From NCBI RefSeq assembly GCF_009749385.1, contig NZ_WBIN01000006.1, forward strand, positions 186,001-250,000: a stretch of DNA of 64,000 nt, written 5' to 3'. The notes below the pieces were generated by a model. It had not been told where the DNA came from. It did not search any database and was given only the letters and a program-made list of their open reading frames with translations. The position numbers and the translations under genes are program-made. This DNA comes from Agromyces allii (GTDB lineage Bacteria; Actinomycetota; Actinomycetes; Actinomycetales; Microbacteriaceae). This document shows, piece after piece, positions 192 through 24,263 of this stretch (its first letter is position 1; each line of letters opens with the position of its first letter).

Positions 192-1549
192 GCGACCCCC
201 GCGAACCCGCTTCCGGCGGAGCCGACTCCCGCGAACCCGACGCCGACGTCGCGATCGAGGAGCCCGGTTCCGTCGCGGCCACGAGCACCACCACGACGAC
301 GACCGCCGCCGCCCGGGCTGCAGCGCCCGAGGTCGAGCCGCCGTCGCGCTGGCACACGATGCTGCACCAGATCGCGACCGGCAACGCGATCATCTCGGTG
401 CTCGCCGTGATCCTCGCGCTCATCGTGGGTGCGATCATGATCGCCTTCACCGACGAGAACGTGCAGAAGGCGAGCGTGTACTTCTTCGCCCGCCCCGGCG
501 ACACCGTCGTCGCGGTCTGGCAGTCGGTCTCCGGCGCCTACACCGCGCTCTTCCAGGGCTCGGTCTACAACTTCAACCGCGACACGTTCGCGGCCGGCAT
601 CCGCCCGCTCACCGAGACGCTCACGTTCGCGACGCCGCTCATCGCGGGCGGCCTCGGCGTCGGCCTGGCGTTCCGCGTCGGCATGTTCAACATCGGCGGT
701 CGCGGGCAGATGCTCATCGCGGCGTCGGTCGCGGGCTGGATCGGCTTCGGCTTCGATCTGCCGTGGGGCCTGCACATGCTCGTCGCGCTCATCGGCGGAC
801 TCCTCGGCGGCGCGCTCTGGGCCGGCATCGCGGGCCTCCTGAAGGCCCGCACCGGGGCGCACGAGGTGATCGTCACGATCATGCTGAACTACGTCGCGTT
901 CTACCTCGTGTCATGGATGCTGCGCACCCCCGGCCTGCTGCAGGCCCCGGGTTCGAGCAACCCGAAGACGCCCGCCATGAAGGAGACCGCGATCTTCCCG
1001 GCCCTCCTCGGGCCGCAGTACAACCTGCACTTCGGCTTCATCCTCGTGGTCGGTGCGACCGTGCTCGTCTGGTGGATCCTCAGCCGCTCGAGCCTCGGCT
1101 TCAAGTTCCGCGCCGTCGGCGAGAACCCGAACGCGGCACGCGTGGCGGGCATCAACGTGAAGTCGATGTACGTCTACGCGATGCTCATCGCGGGTGCACT
1201 GCTCGGTCTCGCGGGCGTCAGCCAGGTGCTCGGCACCGTCACCACGGGCTTCACGGCCGGCATCGACGCGGGCATCGGCTTCGACGCGATCACCGTCGCG
1301 CTGCTCGGGCGCTCGACGCCGTGGGGCATCTTCGTGGCCGGCATCCTGTTCGGCGCGTTCAAGGCCGGCGGCTTCTCGATGCAGGCCGCAGAGGGCGTGC
1401 CCGTCGAGATCGTGCTCGTCGTCCAGTCGCTCATCGTGCTCTTCATCGCCGCGCCGCCGCTCGTGCGCACGATCTTCCGCCTGCCAGACCCGTCCCGAGC
1501 CGCGAAGCGACCTCGCCCGATCGTCACGAAGGAGGTGAAGGCGAAATGA
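188..1549 (+). CDS. Nucleoside ABC transporter permease 1
   Basis: Encodes a 453-residue inner-membrane permease of the branched-chain/ribose permease family (BPD_transp_2). The first 55 or so residues are hydrophilic and low in complexity (runs of Thr and Ala), followed by a TM helix near residues 65-85 and a core of about eight further helices. The cytoplasmic coupling loop GENPNAARVAGI is well conserved. Start ATG overlaps the ATPase stop; the stop overlaps the ATG of the second permease. A ribosome-binding site for the next gene (AAGGAGGTGA, 1529-1538) lies in its last codons. The adjacent cytidine deaminase, thymidine phosphorylase and adenosine deaminase argue for nucleosides rather than sugars as substrate; that is inference. 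Confidence 0.93.
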   Translation: MSDPREPASGGADSREPDADVAIEEPGSVAATSTTTTTTAAARAAAPEVEPPSRWHTMLHQIATGNAIISVLAVILALIVGAIMIAFTDENVQKASVYFFARPGDTVVAVWQSVSGAYTALFQGSVYNFNRDTFAAGIRPLTETLTFATPLIAGGLGVGLAFRVGMFNIGGRGQMLIAASVAGWIGFGFDLPWGLHMLVALIGGLLGGALWAGIAGLLKARTGAHEVIVTIMLNYVAFYLVSWMLRTPGLLQAPGSSNPKTPAMKETAIFPALLGPQYNLHFGFILVVGATVLVWWILSRSSLGFKFRAVGENPNAARVAGINVKSMYVYAMLIAGALLGLAGVSQVLGTVTTGFTAGIDAGIGFDAITVALLGRSTPWGIFVAGILFGAFKAGGFSMQAAEGVPVEIVLVVQSLIVLFIAAPPLVRTIFRLPDPSRAAKRPRPIVTKEVKAK

Positions 1550-2832
1550 GCACGACCGTGCAGCAGACGCCTGCATCCGACGTCCCCGCCCTCGCGACGA
1601 CCGTCGTCACGAGCTGGAAGGCGCCCATCGCCTTCGCAGCCTTCACGCTCATCGCCCTCCTGCTCGCGGTGTTCGCCCCGCGCGAGGGCGAGACCGGGTT
1701 CCGCCTCTCCGAGGCGAAGGACGTCATCCAGATCACGACGATCACCACGCCCGCGATGCCCACCCTCTGGGTCGTCATCGTGCTGCTCGCCCTCGCGACC
1801 GCGTACTCCGTGTTCATCGTCGCCTCGAAGCGTCGCGTGCCGCTCTGGCTCATCGTCGTCTTCGCGGTGCTGTTCATGGTCGGCTTCCTCACCTGGGCGG
1901 CCGCGGGTGCGACGATCCCCGTGGTCGGACTGCTCTTCGGCTCGCTGAGCCTCGCCGTGCCGCTCATCTTCGGATCGCTCTCTGGCGTGCTCTCCGAACG
2001 GGTCGGCGTCATCAACATCGCGATCGAGGGCCAGCTGCTCGCGGGTGCCTTCACGGCTGCGGTCGTGGCCAGCATCACGGGCCAGCCCATCGCCGGGCTC
2101 TTCGCCGCGATGGTCGCCGGCATGCTCGTCTCGTTCGTGCTGGCGGCGTTCTCCATCAAGTACTTCGTCGACCAGGTCATCGTCGGCGTCGTGCTCAACG
2201 TGCTGGTCCTCGGCCTCACGAGCTTCTTCTACTCGCAGGTGCTCGTGCCGAACGCCGCGCAGCTGAACACGCCGCCGCGCTTCGACCGGCTGCCGATCCC
2301 GGTGCTCAGCGAGATCCCGATCATCGGACCGGTGCTCTTCCGACAGACGCTCGTGGTCTACCTCATGTACGTGGCCGTCGCGCTCGTGTACATCGGCCTC
2401 TTCCACACCAAGTGGGGACTGCGCCTGCGAGCGGTCGGCGAGCACCCGCAGGCCGCCGACACCGTCGGCATCAAGGTCAACCGCACGCGGTTCTGGAACG
2501 TCGCCCTCGCGGGCGCGATCGCCGGCCTCGGCGGCACGTTCTTCACCATCGGGTCAGGCATCGCGTTCAACAAGGAGATGACGGCCGGAGCCGGCTTCAT
2601 CGCCCTCGCCGCGGTCATCTTCGGCCAGTGGGATCCGATCAAGGCGACCTTCGCGGCGCTGCTCTTCGGATTCGCGTCGAACCTGCAGAACACCCTTGCG
2701 GTCATCGGGTCGCCCGTGCCGAGCGAGTTCATGCTCATGCTCCCGTACGTCGTGACGATCTTCGCCGTCGCCGGGCTGGTGGGCAAGGTGCGCGGCCCGG
2801 CCGCGGCGGGCAAACCGTACATCAAGTCCTGA
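1546..2832 (+). CDS. Nucleoside ABC transporter permease 2
   Basis: Encodes a 428-residue second permease of the same family, forming a heterodimer with the upstream one. The ATG at 1546 is preceded by a near-perfect Shine-Dalgarno sequence (1529-1538) and overlaps the preceding stop, which decides the start although the frame stays open far upstream. N-terminal helices fall around residues 23-42, 75-95 and 100-120. The loop GEHPQAADTVGIKVNRTRFW matches the coupling loop of the partner (GENPNAARVAGINVKS), as expected for paralogous subunits. It ends 67 nt before cytidine deaminase on the same strand, so transport and salvage are probably co-transcribed. Confidence 0.93.
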   Translation: MSTTVQQTPASDVPALATTVVTSWKAPIAFAAFTLIALLLAVFAPREGETGFRLSEAKDVIQITTITTPAMPTLWVVIVLLALATAYSVFIVASKRRVPLWLIVVFAVLFMVGFLTWAAAGATIPVVGLLFGSLSLAVPLIFGSLSGVLSERVGVINIAIEGQLLAGAFTAAVVASITGQPIAGLFAAMVAGMLVSFVLAAFSIKYFVDQVIVGVVLNVLVLGLTSFFYSQVLVPNAAQLNTPPRFDRLPIPVLSEIPIIGPVLFRQTLVVYLMYVAVALVYIGLFHTKWGLRLRAVGEHPQAADTVGIKVNRTRFWNVALAGAIAGLGGTFFTIGSGIAFNKEMTAGAGFIALAAVIFGQWDPIKATFAALLFGFASNLQNTLAVIGSPVPSEFMLMLPYVVTIFAVAGLVGKVRGPAAAGKPYIKS

Positions 2833-2899
2833 CCTCGTGCGCGCCGGCGTCGGCGCGCACGAGCACGGCGGAACACCCATCCACGAACGGGGGAGCACC

Positions 2900-3349
2900 A
2901 TGACCGCAACGGATGCGATCGACTGGACCGATCTTCGCGAGCGCGCACGCGAAGCCATGGCCAAGGCCTACGTGCCGTACTCCGAGTTCCCGGTGGGGGC
3001 CGCGGCGATCGTCGACGACGGCCGCATCGTGAGCGGCTGCAACGTCGAGAACGCCTCGTACGGCGTGACGCTCTGCGCCGAGTGCTCGCTCGTGTCGGCG
3101 CTCATCATGTCGGGCGGCGGGCGCCTCGTGGCGTTCTCGTGCGTCGACGGGCACGGCAACGTGCTCATGCCGTGCGGGCGCTGCCGTCAGCTGCTCTACG
3201 AGCACTCGTCCGAGGGGATGCTGCTCGAGACCGTCTCGGGCATCAAGACCATCGACGAGGTGCTGCCCGACGCGTTCGGACCGAGGCAGCTCGCAGAATT
3301 CAAGGGCGTCGAGTACAAGGGCGCCGAAAGCAAGGGAGCTGGAGCATGA
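2900..3349 (+). CDS. cdd: Cytidine deaminase
   Basis: Encodes a 149-residue cytosolic zinc enzyme that converts cytidine and deoxycytidine to uridine and deoxyuridine. The zinc site and general base are visible: Cys59-Ala-Glu61 in CAEC and Pro-Cys92-Gly-Arg-Cys95 in PCGRCRQ. N-terminal VPYSEFPVGAAA and GCNVENASYG are family hallmarks of the small homotetrameric form. The C-terminus carries an unusual Lys-Gly-rich tail (FKGVEYKGAESKGAGA) beyond the usual domain end. A GGGGGA ribosome site precedes the ATG. Its stop overlaps the ATG of deoA. Product uridine/deoxyuridine can be split by the neighbouring phosphorylase. Confidence 0.95.
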   Translation: MTATDAIDWTDLRERAREAMAKAYVPYSEFPVGAAAIVDDGRIVSGCNVENASYGVTLCAECSLVSALIMSGGGRLVAFSCVDGHGNVLMPCGRCRQLLYEHSSEGMLLETVSGIKTIDEVLPDAFGPRQLAEFKGVEYKGAESKGAGA

Positions 3350-4647
3350 GCGGCATCGAGGCATTCGACGCGGTCGACCTGATCCGGGCGAAGCGCGACG
3401 GGCACGAACTCGAGACCCCTGAGATCGGGTGGCTCGTCGACGCCTACACGCGCGGGTACGTGGCCGACGAGCAGATGTCGGCCATGACCATGGCGATCTT
3501 CCTGAACGGCATGAGCCGCCGCGAGATCCGCGACCTCACCATGGCGATGATCGCCTCGGGTGAGCGCATGGACTTCGGCGGCCTGGGCAAGCCGACGTCC
3601 GACAAGCACTCCACGGGTGGCGTCGGCGACAAGATCACCCTGCCGCTCATGCCGCTGGTCGCGAGCTTCGGCGTCGCGGTGCCGCAGCTCTCCGGCCGGG
3701 GTCTCGGACACACCGGCGGCACGCTCGACAAGCTCGAGTCGATCCCGGGCTGGCGCGCCGACCTCACGAACGAGGAGATGTTCGCGCAGCTCCGCGAGGT
3801 GGGCGGCGTCATCTGCGCCGCCGGGTCCGGCCTCGCACCGGCCGACAAGAAGCTCTACGCGTTGCGCGACATCACGGGCACGGTCGAGGCGATCCCACTG
3901 ATCGCGAGCTCGATCATGTCGAAGAAGATCGCGGAGGGCACGGGTGCGCTCGTGCTCGACGTGAAGTTCGGCTCCGGCGCGTTCCTGCAGGACATCGACC
4001 GCTCGCGCGAGCTCGCCCGCACGATGGTCGCGCTCGGCGAAGACGCCGGCGTCGCGACATCCGCCCTCATCACCAACATGAACGTCCCCCTCGGGCTCAC
4101 GATCGGCAACGCGAACGAGGTTCGCGAGTCGGTCGAGGTGCTCGCCGGCGGCGGTCCGGCCGACGTGCGCGCGCTCACCGTCGCGCTCGCGAAGGAGATG
4201 CTCGAGCTCGCCGGGGTGCGCGACGCCGACGTCGAGGCGGCCCTCGACGACGGTCGCGCCATGGACAGCTGGCGCGCGTTCGTCGTGGCCCAGGGCGGCG
4301 ACCCCGACGCGGCCCTGCCAGTCGCTCGCGAGACCCACACGGTCGTCGCCGACCGCGACGGCGTGCTCGTCGAGCAGCAGGCGCTGCCCTTCGGCATCGC
4401 CGCCTGGCGCCTCGGCGCGGGTCGTGCGCGCAAGGAGGACCCGGTGCACCACGCGGCCGGCATCGACCTGCACGCGAAGCCCGGCGACACGGTGCGCAAG
4501 GGCGAGCCGCTCTTCACGCTCCTCGCCGACGAGCCCGCCCGGTTCGCCCGTGCACTCGCCGCGGTCGAGGGCGCGTACCGCATCGGCGATGCCGGAGAGC
4601 CGGTGCTCGACGGCGGCCCGCTCATCGCCGACCGCATCGGCGGCTGA
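3346..4647 (+). CDS. deoA: Thymidine/pyrimidine-nucleoside phosphorylase
   Basis: Encodes a 433-residue enzyme that phosphorolyses thymidine or deoxyuridine to the base and 2-deoxyribose-1-phosphate. Diagnostic phosphate-binding motif KHSTGGVGDK lies at residues 87-96, followed by SGRGLGHTGGTLDKLE; the helical N-domain, glycosyltransferase-like alpha/beta domain and C-terminal barrel-sandwich (HAAGIDLHAKPGDTVRKGEPL, given here only as location about 385-405) are all present. Length fits the family (about 430-440). The ATG overlaps the cdd stop, so the two are translationally coupled. The product sugar phosphate would be isomerised by a phosphopentomutase; the only mutase in the window is at 6790-8571. 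Confidence 0.95.
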   Translation: MSGIEAFDAVDLIRAKRDGHELETPEIGWLVDAYTRGYVADEQMSAMTMAIFLNGMSRREIRDLTMAMIASGERMDFGGLGKPTSDKHSTGGVGDKITLPLMPLVASFGVAVPQLSGRGLGHTGGTLDKLESIPGWRADLTNEEMFAQLREVGGVICAAGSGLAPADKKLYALRDITGTVEAIPLIASSIMSKKIAEGTGALVLDVKFGSGAFLQDIDRSRELARTMVALGEDAGVATSALITNMNVPLGLTIGNANEVRESVEVLAGGGPADVRALTVALAKEMLELAGVRDADVEAALDDGRAMDSWRAFVVAQGGDPDAALPVARETHTVVADRDGVLVEQQALPFGIAAWRLGAGRARKEDPVHHAAGIDLHAKPGDTVRKGEPLFTLLADEPARFARALAAVEGAYRIGDAGEPVLDGGPLIADRIGG

Positions 4648-23324: not shown

Positions 23325-23352
23325 CTCGCACGCGGCATCCGGTTTCAAGGCT

Positions 23353-23358
23353 TACCCT
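23353..23358 (+). promoter_or_regulatory. -10 element of the DarT-like gene
   Basis: TACCCT fits TANNNT. It would give a leader of about 45 nt that includes the strong ribosome site GGAGGT at 23401-23406. Confidence 0.4.
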
Positions 23359-23411
23359 AGAAGGTCGGACTCGTGCGCCCCCGAGCGCGAGCCGCCCTAT
23401 GGAGGTCACCC

Positions 23412-24263
23412 GTGGACGAATGCAGGCACGGATTCGAAGCAGGCATGTGCGCCACGTGCTTCCCGCCGCCCGAACCGACGCCGCGCCCCGTGGTCGCACC
23501 GGTTCGCGCACCCCGGACGACGACGTCGCTGCGCGGCACGACGACCCGCGCGTCCACCCGGCCGCCCGCACGCGTGCCCGGCACGCGCGCCGCGGCGACG
23601 TTCACGCCCATCGACCCGAAGACCGTGCGCATCTACCACGTGACGCACGTCGAGAACCTCGCGTCGATCTTCGGCGCCGGCGCGATCCTCGCCGACACCA
23701 CGGGGGCGAAGCCCGAGGTCGACCTCTCCGCGCCCGCCGCGCGCGAGTTCCGTCGCTCCGCGCCCGTCGAGGGCACCGACAACGTCGTGGCCGACTACGT
23801 GCCGTTCCTGCTCTCGACCGACGCCCACGTCTGGGAGTCGCTTCGCACGGGGTCGCCCGATCCCCGCCTGGCCGACAACGCGACCTCGCGTCCGGCAGCC
23901 GACCACGTGCTCTTCGTCACCTCCATCGAGAAGGCCGTCGGCGCACGCACCGAGCAGGTCGGCGCGGTCGCGGTCACCGGCACGGATGTCGCAGCCACCG
24001 GTTCGGTCGTCGACTCGGCCTGGCCCGACGTCCTGCGTGCGCTGCAGCGCATCCACCGCGACGACGAGGGCGCCCAGCTCGCATCGGGGGAGTTCCTCGT
24101 GCACGACGCCCTGCCGCTCGAGCGCGTGCTGCTCATCGCGGTCGGCAACGACCGTGTGCGCGACCGCGTGCGAGCCGTGCTCGACACCTTCGACCTGCGC
24201 ACGCGGGTCGCCGTGCACCCGCCCTACTTCCAGCCCGGCGGCGGCGCGGTCAGCGAGGGCTGA
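23412..24263 (+). CDS. DarT-like (DUF4433) ADP-ribosyltransferase homologue with N-terminal Cys/His knuckle
   Basis: Encodes 283 residues. The GTG start is fixed by GGAGGT 5 nt upstream. Residues 1-20 carry C4, H6, C13 and C16 (DECRHGFEAGMCATCFPPP), a likely zinc knuckle. A Pro/Thr/Arg-rich linker to about residue 65 follows. The rest matches the DarT fold: RIYHVTHVENLASIFGAGAI (His76, His79), then ADYVPFLLS, LFVTSIEKAV, and GEFLVHDALPLERV whose Glu227 aligns with the catalytic Glu of DarT. DarT enzymes ADP-ribosylate thymidine in single-stranded DNA. No DarG macrodomain antitoxin is adjacent: upstream is a bPH2 protein and downstream the convergent gtrA, overlapping by 14 nt. DarT membership is good; activity and target are inferred. 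Confidence 0.8.
   Translation: MDECRHGFEAGMCATCFPPPEPTPRPVVAPVRAPRTTTSLRGTTTRASTRPPARVPGTRAAATFTPIDPKTVRIYHVTHVENLASIFGAGAILADTTGAKPEVDLSAPAAREFRRSAPVEGTDNVVADYVPFLLSTDAHVWESLRTGSPDPRLADNATSRPAADHVLFVTSIEKAVGARTEQVGAVAVTGTDVAATGSVVDSAWPDVLRALQRIHRDDEGAQLASGEFLVHDALPLERVLLIAVGNDRVRDRVRAVLDTFDLRTRVAVHPPYFQPGGGAVSEG

Follow-up and report, generated by a model that had tools for sequence, protein, structure and literature searches.

DarT enzymes are so far known as toxins that come with a dedicated eraser. In the Thermus pair, the toxin is reported to halt growth unless its antitoxin is co-expressed (PMC5179494), and another report describes phage protection by DarTG and gives N104 and M71 of DarT1 as the counterparts of H119 and M78 of DarT2 (PMC11543638). 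For DarT2 itself, a review assigns H13, T15 and N19 to NAD (nicotinamide adenine dinucleotide) binding and R51 and E160 to catalysis, with H119 locking thymine, Y71 contacting the nicotinamide and M78 the intermediate (PMC9967889). An unpaired half of the DNA ADP-ribosylation cycle is likewise described in an actinobacterium, namely the SCO6735 macrodomain of Streptomyces coelicolor, an eraser without a DarT (PMC9411070). Here we analysed a 64,000-nucleotide stretch of Agromyces allii (contig NZ_WBIN01000006.1, positions 186,001 to 250,000; hereafter the window), in which a gene at 23412..24263 (plus strand, GTG start, 283 amino acids) presents the opposite case, a DarT-like writer without the eraser beside it.

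With slightly better than even chances, we read this protein from its sequence and modelled structure as an ADP-ribosyltransferase of nucleic acids that is active but held in check, representing a chromosomal DarT-superfamily branch outside any linked toxin-antitoxin pair. This reading is based on the predicted fold, the conserved NAD-side residues, the retained catalytic pair of Arg and Glu, an N-terminal knuckle that is invariant, a shared promoter element, the lack of a fixed partner outside Agromyces, the missing eraser matches in most hosts and a wide occurrence in one bacterial family; the substrate would be nucleic acid, the target base would be new, and the knuckle together with its linker would supply the restraint.

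A divergent member of the DarT superfamily

Residues 66-275 (23607..24236, plus strand) form a DarT-fold ADP-ribosyltransferase (ART) domain according to a Pfam match, structure prediction and structural comparison. The Pfam DarT profile (PF14487) matched residues 75-273 with 50.8 bits, above its curated cut-off of 22.5, and individually matched all 49 members of our alignment A1 (E ≤ 0.01), while the PADLOC DarT profile gave 66.5 bits. The NCBIfam DarT equivalog NF048013 reached 57.4 bits, well under its 150-bit cut-off, and the best E-value among the other 48 aligned members was 2.2e-27 (the cut-off itself being set in bits). No other DarT match exists within the genome of the window. When the predicted structure was compared with the PDB by VIA-align, it shared the ART fold with DarT over about 190 residues, and the DNA-modifying DarTs were its nearest structures by a wide margin; a viral structure library returned 18 matches at E ≤ 0.001, yet with template modelling scores of at most 0.43 by query length. 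The original assignment to a divergent branch of the DarT family is thereby borne out, and the predicted fold keeps the NAD pocket. Its named relatives include four Agromyces proteins at 53-73% identity and a fifth, at 42%, from an actinobacterial metagenome bin, with members outside Agromyces at 30-43%; no account of this DarT-like family was found in the open-licence papers searched.

Compared with DarT2 (Thermus DarT, PDB 7omv-7on0; Mycobacterium tuberculosis DarT, 7yk3), the toxin of DarTG, the Agromyces protein shares the ART fold, the NAD-binding H-x-T and N and the catalytic Arg and Glu, but differs in its added N-terminal knuckle and basic linker, in the Asp that takes the place of His119, in the missing SPM methionine, in a loop before the catalytic Glu that is mostly shorter, and in having no DarG gene beside it. 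DarT1 of Escherichia coli C7 (8baq), which is guanine-specific and has a NADAR antitoxin, carries Asn104 where Asp192 stands here, and its sequence match was weak (E 0.26). The RNA 2'-phosphotransferase Tpt1/KptA, whose chemistry differs from that of DarT, gave a far weaker structural match.

Active-site residues

Active-site residues were mapped by profile alignment to Thermus DarT, whose chain numbers run one above the published ones, as deduced from the position of E160A. In this alignment H76, T78, N82, R114 and E227 correspond to Thermus H13, T15, N19, R51 and E160, and they are kept in 48, 47, 47, 48 and 49 of the 49 members, respectively. Arg114 (23751..23753) and Glu227 (24090..24092, both plus strand) thus align with the catalytic residues, as had been proposed for the Glu; because both are retained, the earlier suggestion of a "tamed" branch found no support. 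R73, H79, W141 and E227 are also invariant, with Trp141 (23832..23834, plus strand) adjoining the DarT Met78 position. The base side has changed. Asp192 (23985..23987, plus strand) occupies the base-locking position (His119 in DarT2, Asn104 in DarT1) and is Asp in 47/49; the methionine of the M78 position is lost (V in 18, L in 9, R in 8, others in the rest), and the Y71 position holds F in 18, S in 9, L in 8, Y in 8 and others. A base-holding His119/Asn104 combined with Met78/Met71, the mark of a DarT toxin proper, was therefore not found, and relative to Thermus DarT the loop before the catalytic Glu is shortened, mostly by 6-8 residues. Judged from these aligned positions, the NAD half of the active site is retained and the base half is rewritten. 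The prevalence of Asp at the DarT2 His119 position lends support to the altered substrate proposed earlier, although the change of target base is still something we infer.

Knuckle and linker

The first 20 residues (23412..23471, plus strand) follow the pattern E-C-x-H-G-x5-C-x2-C-x-P and form a predicted zinc site. E3, C4, H6, G7, C13, C16 and P18 are invariant in 49/49, so that four spaced metal-ligand residues (C4, H6, C13 and C16) are kept throughout and the knuckle probably binds zinc. C-x-H-G also stood near the protein start in 74/74 extracted homologue loci, which represent 64 distinct genomes or records, ten genomes having been fetched twice. The knuckle blocks were predicted with a local distance difference test score (pLDDT) of 85 and 91, compared with block values of 51-77 for residues 21-60 of the Arg/Pro/Ala-rich linker that follows (residues 21-65, 23472..23606, plus strand), which is predicted to be disordered and basic. 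The linker was net positive in 48/48 members measured (1/49 could not be parsed), which is in keeping with nucleic-acid contact.

A knuckle search of 40 genomes (20 carriers and 20 non-carriers) yielded 20 strong matches (E ≤ 7.5e-8), all of them the carriers' DarT-like genes. Among the matches listed there was one further protein (E 1.7e-4), of 130 residues and without a Pfam match, which is encoded in the non-carrier genome G020 (L130, minus strand, 1501-1893 of the reverse complement) and starts with C-x-H-G-x5-C-x2-C, so the knuckle may be a separate module. Weaker listed matches (E 0.002-0.02) came from G021, G091 and G077, the last of which (L131) is without the motif.

A shared promoter-like element

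Upstream of the gene lies a promoter-like element (window copy GCTTACCCTAGA, 23350..23361, plus strand), a weaker version of the 12-base family consensus GCGTAACGTWGA, scoring 11.4 against 13.2 with hand-set weights. With these weights, the element scored at least 8 in 45 of 50 upstream regions, 9 of them from Agromyces, and at least 10 in 39/50 DarT-like upstream regions compared with 6/246 of other genes. As the weights were derived from the same regions, we repeated the analysis weight-free, growing a motif from randomly chosen starting points in one half of the regions: GTAACGT was recovered in 20/20 splits, and 16-23 of 25 held-out regions beat the top 5% of controls, the halves containing related genera and hence being only partly independent. 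The best site of ten loci begins 15-17 bases before the start codon, with seven of the ten scoring at least 8, a spacing that agrees with the element being the -10 box of leaderless transcripts, which are common in actinobacteria. Taking the nearest start preceding the knuckle, the start codons among the 49 members were GTG in 24, TTG in 17 and ATG in 8. A LexA-type box (GAAC-N4-GTTC) was not found in 43 upstream regions.

Scanning 0.8 Mb (one third) of the carrier genome G190 gave 25 sites scoring at least 10.9, of which 4 lie inside genes and at least 6 near gene starts, the best of those listed near gene starts scoring 11.5 compared with 13.2 at the genome's own DarT-like gene; no regulon could be named from the sites listed in this part of one carrier. 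At locus L049, a glutathione peroxidase family gene on the minus strand (near 3428 of the reverse complement) has a similar element directly before its start, and this family recurs near 6/45 loci.

Distribution and descent

A protein search (E 1e-8) of 299 Microbacteriaceae genomes detected homologues in 147, covering 43/85 genera, with one match each in all but four genomes. In the wider order 7/198 genomes matched, all within the same family, and in the phylum 4/296, three of the genus Agromyces plus one weak match of 27 bits with internal stops; both of these searches used a single member as query and may have overlooked remote relatives beyond the family. No match appeared in the phage, plasmid or viral-contig collections searched, and spread on phages or plasmids is unsupported. 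Distances in the DarT-like tree correlate with those of rpoB over 30 genera (Mantel 0.495, 0/2000 permutations), while only 3/27 splits are common to rpoB (at most 2 in 500 shuffles); vertical descent is thus only partly supported, and transfer within the family is possible. The ratio of nonsynonymous to synonymous substitution (dN/dS) to the nearest homologue was 0.14 over the whole gene, falling to 0.10 within the ART domain. Three genomes (G080, G143 and G241) were matched in two pieces, and 11 listed survey rows count a stop inside the match; the extracted loci among these rows (L013, L067 and L075) have full-length reading frames, so the counted stop is probably the natural end.

Known erasers in carrier genomes

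No DarG macrodomain or NADAR gene adjoins the DarT-like gene in the window, in agreement with the earlier observation that neither neighbour encodes a macrodomain, and the linkage of DarTG is thus missing here. We then surveyed 80 genomes, comprising a single genome from each of 40 carrier genera (of 43 in all) and another 40 without a listed homologue match, 4/80 being less than 90% complete or more than 5% contaminated. Genome-wide, a macrodomain match (E 1e-4) was absent from 26/40 carriers, and NADAR matches were found in 0/80 genomes (0/40 carriers), with 3/14 control genomes positive. A DarG homologue encoded elsewhere, which would have counted against the original reading, is thus missing from most carriers. 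In A. allii a single macrodomain locus does exist, located on a different contig and unlinked to the DarT-like gene. This locus (L002, G000:C12:421837-422164) was matched in two overlapping frames and may be broken or contain an assembly error.

Proposed activity and alternative explanations

In the reading that we prefer, the enzyme would transfer ADP-ribose from NAD+ onto nucleic acid, with the knuckle and basic linker holding it on DNA or RNA and restricting when it acts. The base-side changes (Asp192 for His/Asn, loss of Met78 and the shorter loop) would give a target base other than thymine, and Asp192 would suit bases that offer amino or imino donors, guanine among them. Since most hosts are without known erasers, the activity would have to be weak, or tied to particular circumstances (single strands arising from damage or phage replication, for instance), or its products would have to be mended by general DNA repair. 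A more specific version is possible but doubtful, namely a physiological writer outside toxin-antitoxin systems, chromosomal in many Microbacteriaceae, with a new base specificity in which Asp192 reads an amino-bearing base (guanine or another) and with a zinc module of its own, not an eraser enzyme, keeping it in check. If many genera of one family do carry an active DarT relative, mostly with neither known type of eraser, the ADP-ribosylation of nucleic acids could be an intrinsic activity that cells tolerate. Such a family would also supply a natural DarT that differs in a base-side residue and comes with its own targeting module, so that base specificity and the restraint of DarT activity could be tested directly.

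Several results weigh against an active, restrained writer of this kind. By profile alignment, M. tuberculosis DarT carries Asn at the His119 position, and its activity is reported to be conserved with thymidine-modifying DarT (PMC5179494), so the base is not decided by this residue alone. Asp192 lies in a model block with a pLDDT of 83, below the rest of the domain; member L071 is without R114 and has Pro at 192; and dN/dS rises to about 0.4-0.5 for more distant Agromyces (window versus L004 or L011). Macrodomain matches were commoner in carriers (14/40) than in non-carriers (8/40; Fisher p 0.21), making an eraser partner possible in some hosts, and the statement that most sampled carriers lack either known type of DarT-product eraser comes from a search confined to macrodomain and NADAR.

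A DarT toxin whose antitoxin is unlinked or unrecognised, that is, a toxin-antitoxin pair split across the genome, would agree with the growth arrest that Thermus DarT is reported to cause without its antitoxin (PMC5179494), with the unlinked macrodomain locus of A. allii and with the macrodomain matches in 14 carriers; it is nevertheless rather improbable given the 26 carriers without a macrodomain match, the 40 without NADAR, the absence of any neighbour family adjoining in more than 3/39 non-Agromyces loci and the lack of a clear difference in macrodomains between carriers and non-carriers. Somewhat more credible, though still unlikely, is a stand-alone antiphage abortive-infection ADP-ribosyltransferase that is released from inactivity only when its knuckle or linker detects a nucleic acid or protein of a phage; the reported phage protection by DarTG offers a precedent (PMC11543638). 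The presence of the gene in about half of the genera, at 30-43% identity to members outside Agromyces, would suit such a role. So would the SNF2 and RecB-like helicases, which occur in defence loci too and are two of the ten annotated neighbour families; most of the other families, however, are metabolic, acetyltransferase or transporter families, the mobile-element collections gave no match, and the tree distances partly track rpoB.

The replacement of H119 and M78, together with Tyr in only 8/49 at the Y71 position, could also indicate an ADP-ribosyltransferase acting on protein or a small molecule through a reused DarT fold, which we regard as improbable to a greater degree, because in fold the protein is much closer to the DNA-modifying DarTs than to anything else and the basic linker fits nucleic acid better. 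That the gene is a decaying or inactive DarT remnant is very improbable: L071 has lost two catalytic-site positions, three genomes were matched in two pieces and 11 listed rows count a stop, but the three extracted ones are full length, Glu227, Trp141, His79 and the four knuckle residues are invariant in 49/49, dN/dS to the nearest homologue is about 0.14 and the promoter element is shared.

Gene neighbourhood

In the window, the gene is preceded by a bacterial PH-domain gene (bPH2) and followed by a convergent GtrA-family gene; farther out lie genes that we take to be biotin ligase, purK and purE. The position between bPH2 and purK is retained in 9/9 other Agromyces loci, and the GtrA match is missing at two Agromyces loci (L006 and L014). 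We searched for partners in 45 loci with a custom gene caller, which recovered the DarT-like gene in 43. The fixed neighbour sought by this survey of orthologues exists within Agromyces only as a constant gene place; outside the genus a fixed operon partner was rejected, the commonest adjoining families occurring in just 3/39 loci. Families recurring in 4 to 9 of the 45 loci (His phosphatase, GNAT, glutathione peroxidase, SNF2 helicase and RecB-like helicase), counted with no control for chance recurrence, may be remnants of one ancestral place, and we do not rely on this recurrence.

DarT loci of other Actinomycetes

As a contrast set we collected 13 DarT-family loci of other Actinomycetes, of which 7 were parsed by motif and aligned. 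Six of these (L091 and L093-L097) show the ordinary DarT pattern, SPM together with Asn at the H119 position, and the remaining one, L106, shares the Asn but not the SPM. Near L093, L094, L095, L096 and L103 lies a gene that we presume to be DarG-like, recognised by an NTVNT motif. At L106 (genome G967, 1438-3488), the DarT-family match is followed by an open reading frame presumably resembling an ADP-ribosylglycohydrolase, possibly another type of writer-eraser pair.
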